Of a DNA stretch of 64,000 bases, positions 56,606-64,000 are shown in pieces. The notes beneath the pieces were generated by a model. That model made no database searches. It saw nothing but the letters and a program-made list of their open reading frames with translations, and was not told the origin of the DNA. The stretch spans positions 62,001-126,000 of the forward strand of contig NZ_VUMI01000011.1 of assembly GCF_009696275.1 (NCBI RefSeq). Reading direction: 5' to 3'. The position numbers were made by a program, and so were the translations under genes. The stretch is from Eisenbergiella porci (GTDB taxonomy: Bacteria > Bacillota > Clostridia > Lachnospirales > Lachnospiraceae). Position 1 is the first letter of the stretch; each line of letters opens with the position of its first letter.

Positions 56606-57088
56606 ATGAAAGACCCCGTTCTGTACAGAAGACGTCTGATACCGGAAGAATGCATTCTTCTCAAAAACGACCGGATTCTTCTGAACGAAGCCGGGATTCT
56701 GGTAACCGGCTGGCAGACAATCAGACCAAGAAAGGATCTCCACCATGGCTTTTCCTGTTATTATTTCAGGGAGGGCTACAAAGTAAGCAAATTCTATGCG
56801 GCCGATTACAGGCTGCTCTACTACTACTGCGACATTATTTCCCATGACTTTGATGAACAAAAGAATACGCTTGTTGTCACCGATCTCCTTGCGGATGTAA
56901 TCGTCTACCCGGACGGTTTTGTCAAGGTGGTGGACATCGGTGAAATGGCCCAGGCCCTGGAAGAAAACCTGATCACCGTGTCGCAGCTTAAATCGGCGCT
57001 GCATTCCCTGAACTCGCTTCTGGAACGCGTATATGCCGGGGATATGCCCTCGCTCACGGCTCCCATCGACAGGTTCGACTTCCCCTGA
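56606..57088 (+). CDS. DUF402 domain protein
   Basis: 160 residues with AGGAGAGGGAGG upstream. The core KFYAADYRLLYYYCDII, LVVTDLLADVIVYPDGFVKVVDIGEMAQALE matches DUF402, which in characterised members (YgaC, FAU-1-like) is a nucleoside phosphatase or RNA-binding fold with acidic metal ligands. It is monocistronic and diverges from the atp operon. Function in this host is unknown. Confidence 0.82.
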   Translation: MKDPVLYRRRLIPEECILLKNDRILLNEAGILVTGWQTIRPRKDLHHGFSCYYFREGYKVSKFYAADYRLLYYYCDIISHDFDEQKNTLVVTDLLADVIVYPDGFVKVVDIGEMAQALEENLITVSQLKSALHSLNSLLERVYAGDMPSLTAPIDRFDFP

Positions 57089-57244: not shown

Positions 57245-57281
57245 AAAAAGGGTATCGCTCATAATACAGCGATACCCTTTT
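57245..57281. terminator. Bidirectional terminator between DUF402 and the AAA+ gene
   Basis: AAAAAGGGTATCGC pairs perfectly with GCGATACCCTTTT around a 10-base loop, with A and T runs on both sides. It ends the AT-rich two-gene island on one side. Confidence 0.88.
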
Positions 57282-57285
57282 CCTT

Positions 57286-58863
57286 TTATTCGCTCGTTCC
57301 ATCTACATAAATATCTAGAAAAGCATTAAACACTCTATCCTCAACTGCTTTCTTGATATTTCTTAGATTGTTATATTGAGATAATTCAGATAGTTCTAAA
57401 CTAATATCTTGAATATTGACTTTTTTCCCAAAGTTCTTTTCCAACTTTTCAATTAAGCGAAGTGCCGTAACTTGTATGTATTGCTGTTTTTCTTCTATAG
57501 GCAAATCAACAAAATAATAAACCATATCAAACCTAGACTTTAAGGAATCTGGAATTTTCTTTGAATATTCACTTTGGGTCATATTTGAGGTGAAAACCAT
57601 AATGTACCCATTAAGATTGTGCTCAACGCCGTGTCGATCCGTAAATATACCATCTTCCAACAATTCATAAAAGAAATTGTAGACACTTGGAGTTGCTTTC
57701 TCAAATTCATCAATGAGGATAATTTTTGTTTTAGATGTAGTTATCTTGTTGATTAGCTCTCCACCTTCTTCGCTTCCAACATACCCAAGCGGAGAACCTA
57801 TTAGACTATTTAAAACTCCTTCTGTGGAATAATTGCCAAAATTGATTTTTATTAGTGGTTCTCTTGGAAACATTGTTTCTGACATAAACTTAGCGAATTG
57901 CGTCTTTCCAATTCCTGAATTTCCACATAACATAATTGATAATATTTTCTGTTCGCCCATTCTGTTAAGGAAAAAGAATTTGAGCAGATTTTTGTGGAAA
58001 TCTTTTTTAAACTCATCGTGTCCTCTGAGCTTTTCACAAATTTTTTGAGAGAGTAAGGATACCTCTCCAACATCAATTTGCGGAGGTTCTTTTATGAAAT
58101 CATTCTCATCTTTTTCCTCGTTGATAGGCTCTTTTTCAATGATCCAAAAAGGAAATAGTGCGGTTGCGTCTGCTACAAGAGATTGTTCTATGCAATATTG
58201 AATATTCCCGTTTAATAAGATTCGTTGTATGAGAATTTCAAATGGGAAAATGAGATCCTGTCGCAATCTAAACATTCTTATTACAGAGGAAATGTCAACA
58301 TATTTAATATTCTGAGATTCTAGTGTTTTACGTATATTATCAATATTGTACCGAAAAGAAATTCCTTCACATTCATCGATTAAATTGGATAGTGAAATTA
58401 TCTCTCCAGACTTATAGTGTTCTTTTATCTTTTCGGTATTTGTATATGTATTAAGTATTAAAGTGTTGGCTATATTTGCACTCAATGATTCCGGTTTTAA
58501 TATTTCCTTTTCGAAATTTTTTTGAAATTCATAATTGATATTCTCATTATCAAATAAATACGGGAATTGTTCTGTCAATTTCTCAAGCCAATCATAATTA
58601 ATGCAAAAATGGATTTCTTCAATACTACTGCATAACGTTAAAATATACCGTTCAGAAAAAATCTTATAGAAATTATTATCTTTAACTAAGTTAGTCAGAT
58701 CAACAACACTTTTTTCGAATCGTTCAAAACCTATTTCATAGAGATTATCTAAAGTGTCGCCTATATTAAAAAAATAAGCGATACTATAAAATTTGTAATC
58801 GTTAAGTTTGTTTCTTAAATTACTCAAACTAGTTGTGTCATATACATACAAAATAGAATCCAT
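57286..58863 (-). CDS. ClpB-like AAA+ ATPase, partner of the membrane protein upstream
   Basis: About 525 residues in AT-rich DNA. The first 300 residues match nothing I recognise: helical, rich in Asn/Ile/Glu. The C-terminal part is an AAA_2 module like the second ring of ClpB: Walker A LCGNSGIGKTQFAK near 316, GSPLGYVGSEEGGEL near 360, Walker B IILIDEFEKATPSVYNFFYELLE near 383, sensor FTSNMTQ near 424 and an arginine finger in LKSRFDMV near 444. I start at the ATG one base after the upstream stop, with AGGA seven bases before it. The pair is one operon. A defence role is inferred from architecture, AT-content and its border with mobile DNA. Confidence 0.8.
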   Translation of the reverse strand: MDSILYVYDTTSLSNLRNKLNDYKFYSIAYFFNIGDTLDNLYEIGFERFEKSVVDLTNLVKDNNFYKIFSERYILTLCSSIEEIHFCINYDWLEKLTEQFPYLFDNENINYEFQKNFEKEILKPESLSANIANTLILNTYTNTEKIKEHYKSGEIISLSNLIDECEGISFRYNIDNIRKTLESQNIKYVDISSVIRMFRLRQDLIFPFEILIQRILLNGNIQYCIEQSLVADATALFPFWIIEKEPINEEKDENDFIKEPPQIDVGEVSLLSQKICEKLRGHDEFKKDFHKNLLKFFFLNRMGEQKILSIMLCGNSGIGKTQFAKFMSETMFPREPLIKINFGNYSTEGVLNSLIGSPLGYVGSEEGGELINKITTSKTKIILIDEFEKATPSVYNFFYELLEDGIFTDRHGVEHNLNGYIMVFTSNMTQSEYSKKIPDSLKSRFDMVYYFVDLPIEEKQQYIQVTALRLIEKLEKNFGKKVNIQDISLELSELSQYNNLRNIKKAVEDRVFNAFLDIYVDGTSE

Positions 58864-58864
58864 A

Positions 58865-60163
58865 TTACTCATTCCTATCAAAATTTAACTCTTGGATAAT
58901 TGCAATTACATCGATCAGGTTTATCTTTTCTGTGAGTTTTTGGTGATTAAAGTCAAATGGATTACTATTATTCTGAGTTGAACGAGAACTCATTCTCATT
59001 TCGACAATAGGCTCACTACTCGTGGAACAATTTTGATTATATGACATTGAGACCATTTCTAAAAACTTTGACGAAATGCTTTCTCTTTGTGAAAAATCTA
59101 TATTGCCACGGTATATTCCGATTATGCTAAGTTTTCCCAATTGAAGATCATTATGATGATAACCATTTTCAAAATTATTTGCCGCTTTATATGGAATTTG
59201 TATAATAAATTGATCCGTTAACGCGTCGGCGTTCGTCCCGTGACAAGGATATGCAAAAGTATAGTCTATAGTAAAATCATCTAACATCTTTTCCATCATT
59301 TTGCTAATATTGATCTCTACATCTTCGTTTCCTTGATTTTTAAATTTGCTATCTTGCAATATATTTAAAATCATGACTGTATCGTCAAGATTTCTTTGCT
59401 GCAATTCTATATTTTTAAAAAGAACCAAATCGCCGATTTTAAGTCCCGTATCACTAATGCTTTTTTTCTGTGCCGTTTCATATATTGTGCGAAGCATAAT
59501 TGACTTTGTTATCTTAACATCAAAATTTTCATAGACACGTTTTTTGGAGTTATCCTCTATGGAATACCCCACATCTGCAGAAACTATCTCTTTGGGACCT
59601 AGCATAGTTGCAACATTATACTTCAGTAGCTCTTCCGAAATTTGCTCTCTTTCGATAGTTTTCATTATTTTATTATCAATTAGCATTGCAATCTCATGAG
59701 CCTTGGAAGTATTCAAGTAAAATAAGTTAAATAGTTGTGTGATAGGTGTTGTGCTAATATTATCTGTTACATTTCTTCCTTGAATTTTGGAAACATAGAA
59801 ATTCAAGAATAAAGCAAGTAGTATTATTATCGAGATGTTTTCATAGTGTCTACTAATAAAAGAGGAAATCCAAACATTTCGGATGCTACCAACAAAAAGC
59901 AAGAAAGAAAAAATGTTGCTCAACTCAAGCGAAACACTTATAACTCGAATTACATGAAAACTCTTTGCAAGTATAGCAAAGATAATGTATATGCCAATAG
60001 GAAGTAGCAACCAATATTGCTCCAAACAAAATTGAACTAATATGCTATACAAAGCAATCTCAATTAAGGACAGGAATAGAGAAAATGAAAATAAACAATA
60101 CATTTTCTTTACACCTATTTTTTTGAAAAAAAACGTCTTTATATTATCTATTTTGTTACCCAT
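58865..60163 (-). CDS. Four-helix membrane protein with C-terminal DUF6414-like domain
   Basis: About 432 residues. I start at the ATG seven bases after AGGGG; a frame 35 codons longer has no site. Four membrane helices lie at about 22-45, 51-69, 75-94 and 109-126. The cytoplasmic 300 residues begin TPITQLFNLFYLNTSKAHEIAMLIDNKI and continue with GLKIGDLVLFKNIELQQRNLDDTVMIL and GKLSIIGIYRG. By eye this layout (a YLNTSK start helix, a central IGDLV barrel, a closing G-K-hydrophobic strand) resembles DUF6414, the DolA-type domain. The AT-rich composition differs from the flanking genes. First gene of the pair. Confidence 0.62.
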   Translation of the reverse strand: MGNKIDNIKTFFFKKIGVKKMYCLFSFSLFLSLIEIALYSILVQFCLEQYWLLLPIGIYIIFAILAKSFHVIRVISVSLELSNIFSFLLFVGSIRNVWISSFISRHYENISIIILLALFLNFYVSKIQGRNVTDNISTTPITQLFNLFYLNTSKAHEIAMLIDNKIMKTIEREQISEELLKYNVATMLGPKEIVSADVGYSIEDNSKKRVYENFDVKITKSIMLRTIYETAQKKSISDTGLKIGDLVLFKNIELQQRNLDDTVMILNILQDSKFKNQGNEDVEINISKMMEKMLDDFTIDYTFAYPCHGTNADALTDQFIIQIPYKAANNFENGYHHNDLQLGKLSIIGIYRGNIDFSQRESISSKFLEMVSMSYNQNCSTSSEPIVEMRMSSRSTQNNSNPFDFNHQKLTEKINLIDVIAIIQELNFDRNE

Positions 60164-60193
60164 CTCTTTACCCCTAAAAGTGATATTTATTAT

Positions 60194-60222
60194 ATTATAA
60201 ATGATTTCACCTGATTTCTCAA
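60194..60222 (-). promoter_or_regulatory. Promoter of the two-gene AT-rich island
   Basis: On the minus strand TTGAGA and TATAAT are 17 bases apart, about 30 bases before the membrane-protein start. An 11-bp inverted repeat (ACGCATTTAGA at 60263-60273, complement at 60360-60370) lies further upstream and could be a junction relic or operator. The rest of 60223-60436 has no gene. Confidence 0.65.
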
Positions 60223-60438
60223 TTGTTCTGCTCAATAAGTACCTCAGACAGCTTTCGGGTTTACGCATTTAGAATAGCATTTCAATAGGTAGTAAATAAA
60301 TTTGCCTCCCGTTCATTGACACATGCTTGAAAGCATTGCAAAAGCGCACTGTCTAACCATCTAAATGCGTAGATATAAACGCTATAATGGAAGCGGATTT
60401 CTGCTTGCGCCCGCTTGATTGCCACACAGCAAAGACGG

Positions 60439-60489
60439 AGGAAGCCGTCAAGGGCGCGGAGCGTTTATCTCGACCCTTGACGGCTTCCT
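60439..60489. terminator. Hairpin after the HTH gene of the conjugative-element module
   Basis: AGGAAGCCGTCAAGGG and its perfect complement form a 16-bp stem with a 19-base loop, ten bases after the HTH gene stop. The T-run is weak. Confidence 0.6.
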
Positions 60490-60498
60490 TTGGCTTTG

Positions 60499-60735
60499 CT
60501 ATTTCCTAACTACGATGGCTTCCACCAATTTTGCCTGTAAGCGATGCTTCATGTACTCATCAATGCCGATGTGTGGCAAACCATCTTTGTCATAAAGCGT
60601 TCGCGTACAAAGCTTGTTGATATAGCGGTCGTAGTACCGCAAGATGCGTTCCAATGCCAACGGCTCACCAGCACGGGCGGCTTCGATCACGTCCATTGGC
60701 AAAAGCACTCTGCCGTTAAAAGTTGGCTGCTTCAT
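60499..60735 (-). CDS. Conjugative-element helix-turn-helix protein
   Basis: 78 residues: MKQPTFNGRVLLPMDVIEAA, then EPLALERILRYYDRYINKLC and DEYMKHRLQAKLVEAIV. This is the small HTH protein that follows the sigma-like gene in Tn916/Tn1549-type integrative elements. GGAGTG precedes the ATG, and the gene begins one base after the sigma-like stop. It marks 60.4-64 kb as element-derived. Confidence 0.82.
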   Translation of the reverse strand: MKQPTFNGRVLLPMDVIEAARAGEPLALERILRYYDRYINKLCTRTLYDKDGLPHIGIDEYMKHRLQAKLVEAIVVRK

Positions 60736-60736
60736 A

Positions 60737-61164
60737 TCAATTTTTCACTCCTTTGGATTGTAAGTCTTTTCGCAACTCGTTCAGCACCTTTGTTCTGTGC
60801 CGTTGGACGGCGCTGCGGGACATTCCTGCAATACGACCAATCTCACCGTCTGTCAGCTCCAACACACAATACAGGATCAAAATGCTTTGCTCCCGTTCCG
60901 GCAGGCTGGCAAAGGCATCGGCCACCAGTTCGTCCCGGATATGCAGGGTATAGCCATAGGCTGTGAACATAATGCTGCCGCTTGGGTATTCGGCCACCGT
61001 ACAGAGCTTGTCCATTTCATGCTGCGACAGGCACTGAACTCGGTTTCCCGTTTTCTCTGGCGGCGCAAATCCCGCAGATAGGTTCTGGCCGCGTTGCGGA
61101 GAACGGTTTTGCAGAAAGCGTCAAACCGGCAACGTTCTCCATAATCGTCAGGGATGTATTTCAT
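60737..61164 (-). pseudogene. Conjugative-element sigma-like factor broken by a frameshift
   Basis: The front frame reads MKYIPDDYGERCRFDAFCKTV...DLRRQRKRETEFSA and the rear frame LSQHEMDKLCTVAEYPSG...LPEREQSILILYCVLELTDGEIGRIAGMSRSAVQRHRTK. Adding one base near 61040 restores a single protein of about 142 residues with region-4-like HTH. The single-base loss is either a true mutation or a sequencing error. GGGGGTGA precedes the start. 61165-61499 has no gene that I can support. Confidence 0.75.
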
Positions 61165-61499
61165 TTTCTCACCCCCGATCTGCGGGAGAGTGAGAAACAG
61201 AGGCCGGTTCCACCGCCCCCTGTGTCTATGTTGCTGCGGAAATTTCGGCCCGCACCGAAAGGCCGCAGGAAACGACAAAATTCACCCGTCAAGTCGTAGA
61301 CCGACCGCGCGAAGATGAAAGCGATATGAAGTTTTCTTACATGGTATAGTTCATACTGTTGGCCGGAGCTGCCCCCTGTTGGGTACAGGCTTTTTTTTAA
61401 GAAATTACGCTTTTGGAAAACGGGACATATCAGCATGGCGGCTCCCTCCGTAGGCCGCCGATCCTGCGCCGGACAAAGAAAAGCGGCGGCCTTGATTAT

Positions 61500-61838
61500 T
61501 CAAAGCCGCCGCATGGATATGTAGAGTAGGCGCACCAAATCAACCTGCCCGGCAACGGCTTTTTTTCTTTCCCCGTCGGGCGGGGGCAGGTTTCCATCAT
61601 GTGTTATAAGACAAATAGAGCCGACAACTGCAAGGAACATCCTTGCTTGTTGTCGGCTCTGCGTCTGTGCGTCTGGCTCTTTGATAATAGAAATATTCAG
61701 TTGTCGTACTTCAATTAGCGTTTCATGTTTGCATTTTGGACAGTACAGCGGGAAATTTTCAAGAACCGTATCTTCCCGGATTTTCAACCGGGTTTTGCAG
61801 CCACAGACGGGACATAAAATCCATTGTTCATGTTTCAT
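61500..61838 (-). CDS. Cysteine-rich KTR protein with an unusual C-terminal extension
   Basis: About 112 residues. The N-terminal 55 residues are a zinc-ribbon-like CPVCGCKTRLKI...YCPKCKHETLIEV, typical of the cysteine-rich KTR proteins of clostridial conjugative elements. Such proteins usually end after KEPDAQTQSR; here the frame continues 50 residues through a terminator hairpin, so the tail looks like stop-codon loss. The ATG overlaps the glycosyltransferase stop (ATGA) and has AGAGGA upstream. Confidence 0.7.
   Translation of the reverse strand: MKHEQWILCPVCGCKTRLKIREDTVLENFPLYCPKCKHETLIEVRQLNISIIKEPDAQTQSRQQARMFLAVVGSICLITHDGNLPPPDGERKKAVAGQVDLVRLLYISMRRL
61618..61659 (-). terminator. 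Terminator-like hairpin inside the KTR frame
   Basis: GAGCCGACAAC and GTTGTCGGCTC form a perfect 11-bp stem with an inner CAAGG/CCTTG stem, followed on the minus strand by TATTTGTCTT. It lies where the normal KTR gene should end. Confidence 0.7.
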
Positions 61839-63013
61839 GCTTTTTCCTCTATGTGGCATAGTTCCGATAAAACCATCTCTGCGATTGCAGCATTCCCGCC
61901 CGCTGCTTGCGATTTTTGCTGAAATGGAATGATATTTTCCTCATAGGACGTATCCTGCAAAATCATTTTTGCATTGTCTTTGAGTATGGACGGGGTTAAT
62001 GTTTTCCTTTTGAGATATTTCCCCAAATGCAAATCTTCAATCTGCTGCGCTACCCGCGGCTGATCGTTGCCGACAGGGATAACCAGCATCGGTGTCCCAT
62101 AATATAAGGCTTCATTTACGCTGTTCATCCCGCCGTGAGTGATAAAGAGAGAAGCCCTTTTCAGTATTTTTAACTGCGGGACAAAAGGATAGATAAAAAT
62201 GTTATCTGGTATTTCTCCGAGCTGTTCTTTCTTAACCGTTTTTCCAATGGAAATTATCACGGAAACAGGTTCATCACGGAAAGCGTTTATACATTTCCGA
62301 AAGAACGCTGCGGAAGTATTCAACAGGGTTCCGAGAGAAATGTAAATAATGGGCTTTGTCATTTTTGAAAAATCAAAGTCCTGTTCTACGCGATCACCGA
62401 TTGCTGGGCCAACGTACTTATAGTTAGCATCAGGAAACTCATTGGGATATATCTGAAAATCTCTAACCGTATAGGTGAAATTCAAATTAGGCGCATTATT
62501 TACCATTTCCTTTGCAATATCTCCATAACGCAAGCCAAACTTTTTTTGGATCACTTTAGAAAACAGCCTGCACAGTCTTGGGTAACGAAAGATTGCGGTC
62601 ATATACCAGCCGCCGGTTCTTCCGAAATCCCACAACACTTTTTCATTCAGAGTAAAGGTTGAGAACAGGCGGAAAGCCGGGATGCCCAACTGATCGGCCA
62701 AAGCCTTTCCCGGAAGAAATAGCATTTCATAAATCAGGCAATCAAAATTAGCGCCTATCCTCTGAACAGTTTGGTAGGCAGCAGACCAGCTTTTGATTTC
62801 CTTTTGAGAGGGGGAAAGTGTTTCCGGGTAATCATCGTATGGAATAAATGTAGCGCCGGTTCTTTCAATTTTTTCTTTCCAGTCAGGTGCATTGATATAG
62901 GACACATGATGCCCCAAATCTACCAATACTTTTGCCAGCCCCAGTGTAGGATTTGTATGGCCGGAGAATGGCAAATTCACCATTAAAATATTCCATTTTC
63001 TAAAATCATTCAT
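61835..63013 (-). CDS. Macrolide-family (MGT) UDP-glycosyltransferase
   Basis: 392 residues, GT-B fold of family GT1. The N-terminal acceptor half begins LMVNLPFSGHTNPTLGLAKVLVDLGHHV, and the C-terminal donor half has YISLGTLLNTS and the signature FITHGGMNSVNEALYYGTPMLVIPVGNDQ. MGT enzymes glucosylate macrolides or other hydrophobic acceptors; here it is encoded directly after a TetR regulator with an 8-base overlap, the arrangement of an inducible drug-inactivation unit. The acceptor is not known. Confidence 0.88.
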   Translation of the reverse strand: MNDFRKWNILMVNLPFSGHTNPTLGLAKVLVDLGHHVSYINAPDWKEKIERTGATFIPYDDYPETLSPSQKEIKSWSAAYQTVQRIGANFDCLIYEMLFLPGKALADQLGIPAFRLFSTFTLNEKVLWDFGRTGGWYMTAIFRYPRLCRLFSKVIQKKFGLRYGDIAKEMVNNAPNLNFTYTVRDFQIYPNEFPDANYKYVGPAIGDRVEQDFDFSKMTKPIIYISLGTLLNTSAAFFRKCINAFRDEPVSVIISIGKTVKKEQLGEIPDNIFIYPFVPQLKILKRASLFITHGGMNSVNEALYYGTPMLVIPVGNDQPRVAQQIEDLHLGKYLKRKTLTPSILKDNAKMILQDTSYEENIIPFQQKSQAAGGNAAIAEMVLSELCHIEEKA

Positions 63014-63644
63014 AATAGCGCCGCAGACCCTCCTTTACCTGTGCGGTTAATTCCGAAGTGAAAACCGGCGTATCAAACTTGGCAGCCAGAAGCGCGATAA
63101 AGTCAACCTTTTCGCACATTTCTTGATAGTCGCTTTCAACAATAATCGGATCAAGCCAAATATCAACCAGAAGTATCAGCACACCGGCCAGCTCCTTGGG
63201 ATATTTACAATCAAATTCCTTGTTTGCTGTACCTTGCCGCAAAATTTCTTCTAAGTAGCCGGAAAGAACATTTAGAGAGTTTCGCAGAGTGTCCAACAAC
63301 GCAAAAGGAACTTTTTCTGCCCATTTTTCTTTTGTGAGTGTAGAGAGGGTGTCATTGGAAAAGAGGTGAACAACAATCTGTCTGATTTTTTGCTGTGCTG
63401 TCATTCCCGGATGTGCTACCAATTCTTTGAGGCGGCTGGTAAATTGCTTCTTTTCATAATCGGATAGATAAGCAACAATTTCCTGTTTGCTCTTAAAGTA
63501 ATGGTATATGGCCCCTTTTGACATTCCGCTGGCCTCAACAATGTCCTGCATAGTGGTGTTTTCACACCCTTTTTCTAAAAATAGCTTCATTGCAGCGTCA
63601 ATGATTTTACCTTTAGAAAGCAGAGATTTTTCTTCCTGTTTCAT
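63006..63644 (-). CDS. TetR family transcriptional regulator
   Basis: 212 residues. The N-terminal HTH is KIIDAAMKLFLEKGCENTTMQDIVEASGMSKGAIYHYFKSKQEIV; the rest is a helical ligand domain. AGGTGA lies before the ATG. It overlaps the glycosyltransferase gene by eight bases, and its promoter carries a palindromic operator, so it should repress itself and the glycosyltransferase until a drug-like ligand binds. Confidence 0.92.
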   Translation of the reverse strand: MKQEEKSLLSKGKIIDAAMKLFLEKGCENTTMQDIVEASGMSKGAIYHYFKSKQEIVAYLSDYEKKQFTSRLKELVAHPGMTAQQKIRQIVVHLFSNDTLSTLTKEKWAEKVPFALLDTLRNSLNVLSGYLEEILRQGTANKEFDCKYPKELAGVLILLVDIWLDPIIVESDYQEMCEKVDFIALLAAKFDTPVFTSELTAQVKEGLRRYYE

Positions 63645-63662
63645 TTGTCACCTCCATAAAAT

Positions 63663-63679
63663 AAACCGTCGGTCGGTTT
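63663..63679. promoter_or_regulatory. TetR operator
   Basis: AAACCG-TCGGT-CGGTTT is a palindrome of the ACCGACCGACGGT type bound by TetR-family repressors. It lies between the promoter and the TetR start. Confidence 0.7.
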
Positions 63680-63685
63680 TGTTTA

Positions 63686-63714
63686 AGAATAGCATATTCA
63701 CGGAAGATTGTCAA
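63686..63714 (-). promoter_or_regulatory. Promoter of tetR-glycosyltransferase-KTR
   Basis: On the minus strand TTGACA and TATTCT are 17 bases apart. The operator begins seven bases downstream, where it would block initiation. Confidence 0.8.
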
Positions 63715-63819
63715 CTTCACCGCGCTGGTGAAATATGAATTATAAAGTTTAACATACCGGCATATACCAACATTCCATCGAGATACTATGAACTATACAA
63801 TGTAAATGGGTGATGTTAT

Positions 63820-64000
63820 ATGGCGAAAGTTGAAGATTGCCCGGCTTTGAAACTTTCGGCGCGGATGTGAAAGCTGCGCGGAAAGCAAAGCACCTGACGC
63901 GCAAGGTGCTGGCCGAAATAGTGGGAATTGAATGGCGCTATCTTGCCGATATAGAAAATAAAGGCACGATCCCCAGCCTCCCGGTTGTGATCCAGCTTAT
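63820..64000 (+). pseudogene. XRE-type regulator of the conjugative element, frameshifted and cut by the window edge
   Basis: ATG with GGGTGA upstream opens MAKVEDCPALKL and stops after 16 codons. From about 63850 another frame reads GFETFGADVKAARKAKHLTRKVLAEIVGIEWRYLADIENKGTIPSLPVVIQ up to the edge, a classic helix-turn-helix of conjugative elements. One inserted base near 63852 would join them. Like the sigma-like gene, it looks recently inactivated, unless these are sequencing errors. Confidence 0.65.

Follow-up and report, generated by a model that had tools for sequence, protein, structure and literature searches.

Dodola, the described anti-phage system closest to the gene pair examined here, couples DolA, a DUF6414 protein, with DolB, a ClpB-like ATPase. 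Dodola gave wide protection against streptococcal phages in a 2025 study, the available part of which lists its mechanism as unknown (PMC12322248). The same part reports that insertion of Dodola into the chromosome slowed growth (PMC12322248), a delay that would suit a toxic effector kept in check. PDC-M37 is listed as a candidate family in PADLOC-DB. The PDC systems are described as unpublished candidates in the accessible part of PMC11811056, where one locus is called both Dodola and PDC-M37, and we found no mention of PDC-M37 outside that source in the literature searched. Here we analyzed a stretch of 64,000 nucleotides from Eisenbergiella porci (assembly GCF_009696275.1, contig NZ_VUMI01000011.1, positions 62,001 to 126,000), hereafter the window, in which two adjacent genes, A and B, form a minus-strand operon that matches PDC-M37 (Table 1). 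We give about even chances to the reading that the pair is a membrane-anchored PDC-M37, a mobile anti-phage candidate distantly related to Dodola, that acts through A and B by membrane-directed abortive infection.

When the predicted proteins were compared with the PADLOC models, A matched PDC-M37A (PDLC04601; expectation value (E) 5.9e-124), residues 58-430 aligning with positions 7-373 of the 374 in the model. B matched PDC-M37B (PDLC04605, 518 positions; E 1.9e-150) over residues 4-518, that is, 515 of its 528 residues. Thus, the pair belongs to a candidate family already catalogued and is not a new system. A first-pass annotation, made from the letters of the window, had proposed a membrane version of Dodola as a new variant; such a version was already in PADLOC-DB, the A model spanning about the last three membrane helices together with the soluble part. 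What is new here for PDC-M37 is the description of the membrane helices, the duplication within B and the pore loop.

The two genes were constant companions. A was followed by B in all 14 membrane-type loci (12 loci from genome contigs, L024 and the window) and in all five soluble-type loci (L026, three of the four plasmid records, and L068). B appeared to be disrupted in two of the 14 (L010 and L014) and was truncated by the end of locus L024. Distances among A proteins and among B proteins were correlated (r 0.93; 36 pairs, 9 loci). PDC-M37A occurred in a membrane form and a shorter soluble form, which belong to one family by profile comparison (E 5e-33), and the soluble branch paired a related B with an A lacking the N-terminal helices. 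The soluble PDC-M37A model also matched Methanocaldococcus jannaschii, a control genome, and the soluble branch therefore extends to archaea. The soluble-type A of L068 (positions 1459-2418) carries, by eye, a C-terminal tail rich in Trp and Arg, which might be another membrane contact.

Protein A comprises four predicted N-terminal membrane helices (approximately residues 21-128) and a conserved soluble domain (approximately 141-432), which is probably a cytosolic alpha/beta domain. The four helices had been noticed in the first pass, and two methods agreed on them: hydropathy gave segments at 29-47, 51-69, 74-92 and 109-127, and AlphaFold2 gave helices at 16-44, 53-68, 79-95 and 107-133, with a predicted local distance difference test score (pLDDT) mostly above 80. 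By a simple hydropathy rule, N-terminal segments numbered four in seven and three in six of the 14 membrane-type A proteins, window included; the A of L011, the start of which is uncertain, had two. The distribution of basic residues suggests a topology with the N terminus inside and the soluble domain in the cytosol. Mean identity was 24% in the membrane part and 62% in the soluble part (55 pairs of 11 proteins, excluding L010, L011 and L017), and the soluble part was the more conserved in every one of the 55 pairs. This pattern fits a conserved B-binding domain joined to a changeable membrane part, and drift of the membrane bundle would be expected both for an anchor and for an effector in an arms race. 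A had no Pfam match above the cut-off and no NCBIfam match at all. Weak Pfam or PADLOC matches to NLPC_P60 (0.016), Acyl_transf_3 (0.0025), SLATT_4 (0.049) and a 2TM effector (0.01) were below the cut-off or inconsistent between relatives and were discarded.

Protein B matched AAA_2 (E 5.4e-27), in line with the ClpB-type assignment of the first pass, and consists of two domains in tandem at the N terminus (residues 1-112 and 135-248) followed by an AAA part (270-528). Its motifs are Walker A (GNSGIGKT), GYVG, Walker B, sensor 1 and SRFD. All five were kept in 9 of 9 B proteins (the alignment omits L010, L011, L014, L017 and L024), the second of them as GY(V/I)G (seven GYVG, two GYIG), and the AAA part averaged 65% identity in the family. 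The GYVG of B (residues 363-366) is in register with that of ClpB and ClpC, GYVG being the pore loop of Hsp100 proteins. These motifs make ATP-driven remodelling by B likely. B is probably a ring-shaped motor, and would be a hexamer by analogy with ClpB and ClpC.

The first-pass annotation had described the front of B as an unknown, sensor-like part of 300 residues. A long part does precede the AAA domain; it proved to consist largely of a domain of about 110 residues present twice in tandem. Profiles of the two copies matched each other over 100 columns (E 5.2e-11; score 63.0, with 40 shuffles reaching 20.2 at most), and each copy matched the single N domain of four short soluble-type B proteins (E 2.2e-7 and 5.7e-8). 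Among the soluble-type loci the front part was short in four of five and long in one, L068, in which A lacks a strong hydrophobic segment and Walker A of B lies at residue 304. Against the domain profiles, the two N-terminal parts of the L068 B reached E 3.6e-6 and 2.2e-4 at best. We therefore rejected the idea that the duplicated front part is tied to the membrane anchor, as L068 has a long front part without an anchored A.

The top NCBIfam matches of B were ClpB (6.7e-26), TssH/ClpV (3.2e-25), ClpA (3.7e-23), ClpK (4e-23) and ClpG (2e-20), and its pore loop is intact, as would be expected if the pair were an accessory stress module, a membrane-tethered remodeller or disaggregase for heat or envelope stress like the mobile ClpK/ClpG. 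However, these matches span one AAA domain and include neither a first AAA ring nor a Clp N domain, and B scored far below every curated cut-off (90.9 against 1232.1 bits for ClpB). The presence of B beside A in every membrane-type locus also argues against a stress module, and we regard this explanation as quite improbable.

The first pass had further suggested that A resembles DUF6414 and that the pair is linked to Dodola; the link held for B and failed for A in direct searches. A had no match at E up to 10 to PF19952 (DUF6414) or to the DolA model PDLC03837, and PF19952 did not match four soluble relatives of A; as a positive comparison, DolA of genome G092 matched PF19952 at E 4.2e-45. We accordingly rejected A as a DUF6414 protein by direct search, the relationship being distant at best after profile comparisons. 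The profile check that the first pass had proposed was negative for the membrane form, the membrane PDC-M37A profile reaching E 0.12 against DolA, and gave distant similarity for the soluble and merged profiles only. The soluble profile matched DolA at E 1.3e-4 (74 columns; score 37.7 against a shuffle maximum of 23.0) and the merged profile at E 1.3e-3 (73 columns; 31.8 against 20.6), both exceeding the controls of 30 column shuffles and a reversed profile. For calibration, DolA matched other Pfam DUF6414 proteins at E 3.3e-5 (6.7e-5 when realigned), and the merged PDC-M37A profile gave an intermediate result against those proteins (E 0.023; score 23.6, shuffle maximum 16.2). By eye, PDC-M37A and DolA have common short segments at the start and end in the same order, which is no independent proof. 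We conclude that PDC-M37A is likely to be distantly akin to DolA. No solved structure gave a significant sequence match to DolA.

B matched DolB at E 1.3e-35, in the AAA part only (residues 261-519), and reciprocally a DolB matched PDC-M37B at E 2.1e-35. The N-terminal part of DolB compared with the front domain of B gave E 0.14, within the range of shuffles. Thus, B and DolB have a common motor core and no detectable common front end. GY(V/I)G was absent from all six DolB proteins aligned (leaving out L042, annotated as two shorter genes), and B, unlike DolB, looks able to thread protein.

The reciprocal B matches, the identical gene order, the local similarity of soluble PDC-M37A to DolA and the report of one locus under both names in the accessible part of PMC11811056 are what a true Dodola would show, A being DolA and B being DolB with a membrane anchor added. 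The lack of a DolA or DUF6414 match in A, an N-terminal domain of DolB with no detectable relationship to that of B, and the missing pore loop of DolB count against this, and we consider it very unlikely. A broader reading is less likely than not: PDC-M37 and Dodola may be two deep branches of one immune superfamily that joins a DolA-like protein to a Clp-type motor. Here a threading Hsp100 motor with tandem sensor domains would directly gate a four-helix membrane effector, coupling remodelling to membrane killing, and the Dodola motor would have lost its pore loop and become a switch.

Several observations touch on the Dodola genes themselves. In the available part of PMC11514479, 'DolA' is said to be Clp ATPase-like and 'DolB' not, the opposite of PADLOC and Pfam usage; the structural part of that paper seems to have the two names interchanged. 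The genome of the window also contains, on contig C64 (84592-84870; L023), a DolA/DUF6414-like frame of 100 amino acids terminated by TAA. No AAA partner was found in the 3.3 kb examined, and the frame may be a relic or a solo DolA. None of five DUF6414 genes from the phylum sample (L029-L033) had an AAA gene nearby in the 3.7-3.9 kb examined, and DUF6414 thus often occurs outside Dodola. One of these (L029) adjoins a DUF1016/YhcG-type PDDEXK nuclease gene.

In the explanation that we favour, membrane-directed abortive infection by a membrane-anchored PDC-M37, A would be held in the cytoplasmic membrane by its fast-evolving four-helix bundle, with the conserved domain facing the cytosol. B would form an AAA+ ring, use its tandem N-terminal domains to dock on A or a trigger made by the phage, and thread or remodel protein with its intact pore loop. 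Infection may alter the A-B complex such that A opens the membrane, damages it or blocks a phage step bound to it. The cell would then stop before phage release. We favour this abortive, membrane-directed outcome and do not assign the sensing and acting parts to A or B.

Several results weigh against this explanation. No phage or toxicity data on any PDC-M37 were found in the literature searched, and the effect of Dodola was only minimal in one Streptococcus study, as far as its available part reports (PMC11514479). The A proteins of the soluble branch lack the N-terminal helices, and a membrane is therefore not essential family-wide. In the AlphaFold2 model of the whole of A (mean pLDDT 49.2), confidence was confined to the membrane bundle, the soluble domain being mostly below 50, and no solved structure gave a significant sequence match to that domain; an effector role for A, as opposed to that of sensor or anchor, is thus a guess. 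Neither 50,697 phage records nor two scans of viral contigs yielded a relative of A, and among the neighbours scanned, experimentally known defence families lay near the pair in only two of the 11 longer loci (L014 and L020). As to kinship with Dodola, the score of membrane PDC-M37A against DolA (19.4) was within the shuffle range (maximum 23.4), the significant local match of soluble PDC-M37A to DolA was limited to about 74 columns, and soluble PDC-M37A against other DUF6414 proteins was at chance level (E 0.2).

The layout of the pair agreed with a compact cassette. B may start at ATG 58872, overlapping the stop codon of A, or at ATG 58863, one base past it; the family alignment favours 58863, which fits the single base between the genes reported in the first pass. 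A longer frame for A (467 amino acids from 60268) is less favoured, as it would cross the promoter. Matches to the single promoter and terminator proposed for the operon were both found. The terminator-like stem was assigned to the plus strand by the scan; it is symmetrical, and both strands have T runs. Sites of either kind are not unusual in the region (18 promoter-like sites against 15.3 +- 4.1 in shuffles; three terminator-like sites against 1.5 +- 1.3), and the calls for this operon therefore rest on position and score. The pair is also more AT-rich than its surroundings, as had been noted: its G+C content (GC) is 0.308, and stretches of the window of equal length that do not overlap the pair (n = 55,368) averaged 0.502, the lowest being 0.433. 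The GC of the pair was lower than that of its flanks in 10 of 11 loci.

Table 1. Features of the operon and its surroundings (window positions)
Feature	Position	Strand	Remarks
DUF402 chromosomal gene	56606..57088	+	Left edge of insertion; in 13/13 same-genus genomes searched, own included
Terminator-like stem-loop, 14 pairs	57246..57281	-	Separates B from the convergent DUF402 gene
Gene B (PDC-M37B)	57286..58872	-	Clp/Hsp100-type AAA+ ATPase; 528 amino acids (525 from 58863)
Gene A (PDC-M37A)	58865..60163	-	432 amino acids; ATG at 60163 is the preferred start
Promoter-like TTGAGA-17-TATAAT	60194..60222	-	Upstream of A; 11/12 consensus matches, consensus only
Conjugative/mobilizable element remnant and cargo	60499..63644	-	HTH_16, split sigma-like, Cys_rich_KTR, UDP-glycosyltransferase-like, TetR
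Large serine recombinase	64714-65988 (window-equivalent)		Just beyond the window

The first pass had placed the pair between the DUF402 gene and a degraded conjugative element, and the HTH_16 and Cys_rich_KTR genes to its right bear this out. A sigma-factor-like gene of this element (60737-61278, minus strand) is, by eye, seemingly split over two frames, in keeping with a decaying element. A UDP-glycosyltransferase-like gene and a TetR regulator (61835-63644, minus strand) are element cargo. In five same-genus relatives (L045, L046, L047, L050 and L053), DUF402 is directly followed by a gene for a PcsB-like cell-wall hydrolase, named from a Hydrolase_2 match in L045 (E 4.1e-23) and by eye in the other four, the frame in L046 being shorter. 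The own-genome hydrolase (87% identical) lies at base 136 of contig C99 in a compatible orientation, and the contig of the window (C13) continues through conjugative-element genes and the large serine recombinase. Most simply, insertion of the pair and the element would have separated the DUF402 and hydrolase genes, the far junction being unassembled. When the window element (60170-64000) was compared with 55 loci from other sources, a single DNA match was obtained (105 bases, 72%, in L012). The pair therefore travels on different carriers.

The pair is sporadic. A search of 98 genomes returned the own copy, one other true match (G340) and one weak match of 58 residues, with no true match among the 12 other genomes of the genus. 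Among 391 genomes of the class, the membrane-type match was confined to the own genome; of the nine class-wide matches, seven were weak and partial (18-23 bits) and were dropped, and the other two were the own copy and a soluble relative. In the survey of other genomes suggested in the first pass, the position of the pair was not conserved, and its neighbours included mobile genes and in some cases defence genes. In L009 and L011 a large serine recombinase is found immediately upstream of the pair, and near-identity to L009 implies the same for L010. An integrase and MobA/MobL or Mob_Pre are near it in L014 and L015, and ParB and a relaxase in L019; soluble forms are on four plasmid records. 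These carriers, together with the window's own element, would equally suit an element-borne competition or maintenance module that excludes or kills cells taking up rival elements and is not mainly anti-phage. L012, L016 and L017, on the other hand, look chromosomal by eye, and L020 places the pair near BREX. Defence systems commonly travel as element cargo, so location does not discriminate between defence and competition; we judge the competition module unlikely.

Returning to the anti-phage explanation, defence-related neighbours of the pair were single cases. In L020 (Clostridium ragsdalei), BREX pglZ and brxL are about 2 kb upstream, with PDC-S23-like and PDC-S47 candidates nearby; in L014 an AbiD-like gene follows the pair, with PDC-S02 farther on; and L017 has a PDC-M13 candidate near the pair. 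No clear defence family was found among the neighbours scanned singly in the other longer loci. The PADLOC neighbour scan covered 126 open reading frames of at least 110 amino acids, some surely spurious, from 10 loci and matched 98 families (E up to 1e-6). Twenty-five of these were listed, many being several models per protein or housekeeping look-alikes. Because 20 of the 126 frames were scanned singly, the defence neighbours are at least those named. Weaker single matches to DpdH (1.2e-14, L009) and mad2 (2.1e-13, L012), and HTH_VI and RmrA at about 1e-7 in L016, were not counted as defence. The surroundings of DolAB loci were similar: L039 has an Abi gene and L040 a TIR protein.

The membrane and soluble forms of PDC-M37, and motors that keep or lack the pore loop, are natural variants for the study of Dodola-like immunity, which allow the roles of the membrane and of protein threading to be tested. 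Among the known systems, PDC-M37 (models PDLC04601-04606) is the one to which both adjacent genes match, PDLC04601 and PDLC04605 being the long forms; nothing in the locus argues against membership, and the PADLOC library supplies no architecture or mechanism. Dodola is alike in gene order, in a related AAA domain, in plasmid and element contexts and in the distant local similarity of soluble PDC-M37A to DolA. It differs in that A is not detected as a DUF6414 protein and has four membrane helices, that the front domain of B is different and duplicated, and that B keeps GYVG, which DolB lacks. With the second AAA domain of the Hsp100 proteins ClpB and ClpC, B has Walker A and B, GYVG, sensor 1 and SRFD in common. 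In contrast to these proteins, B has a single AAA domain and different, tandem front domains, and neither a first ring nor a ClpB N domain nor a middle domain was detected in it.

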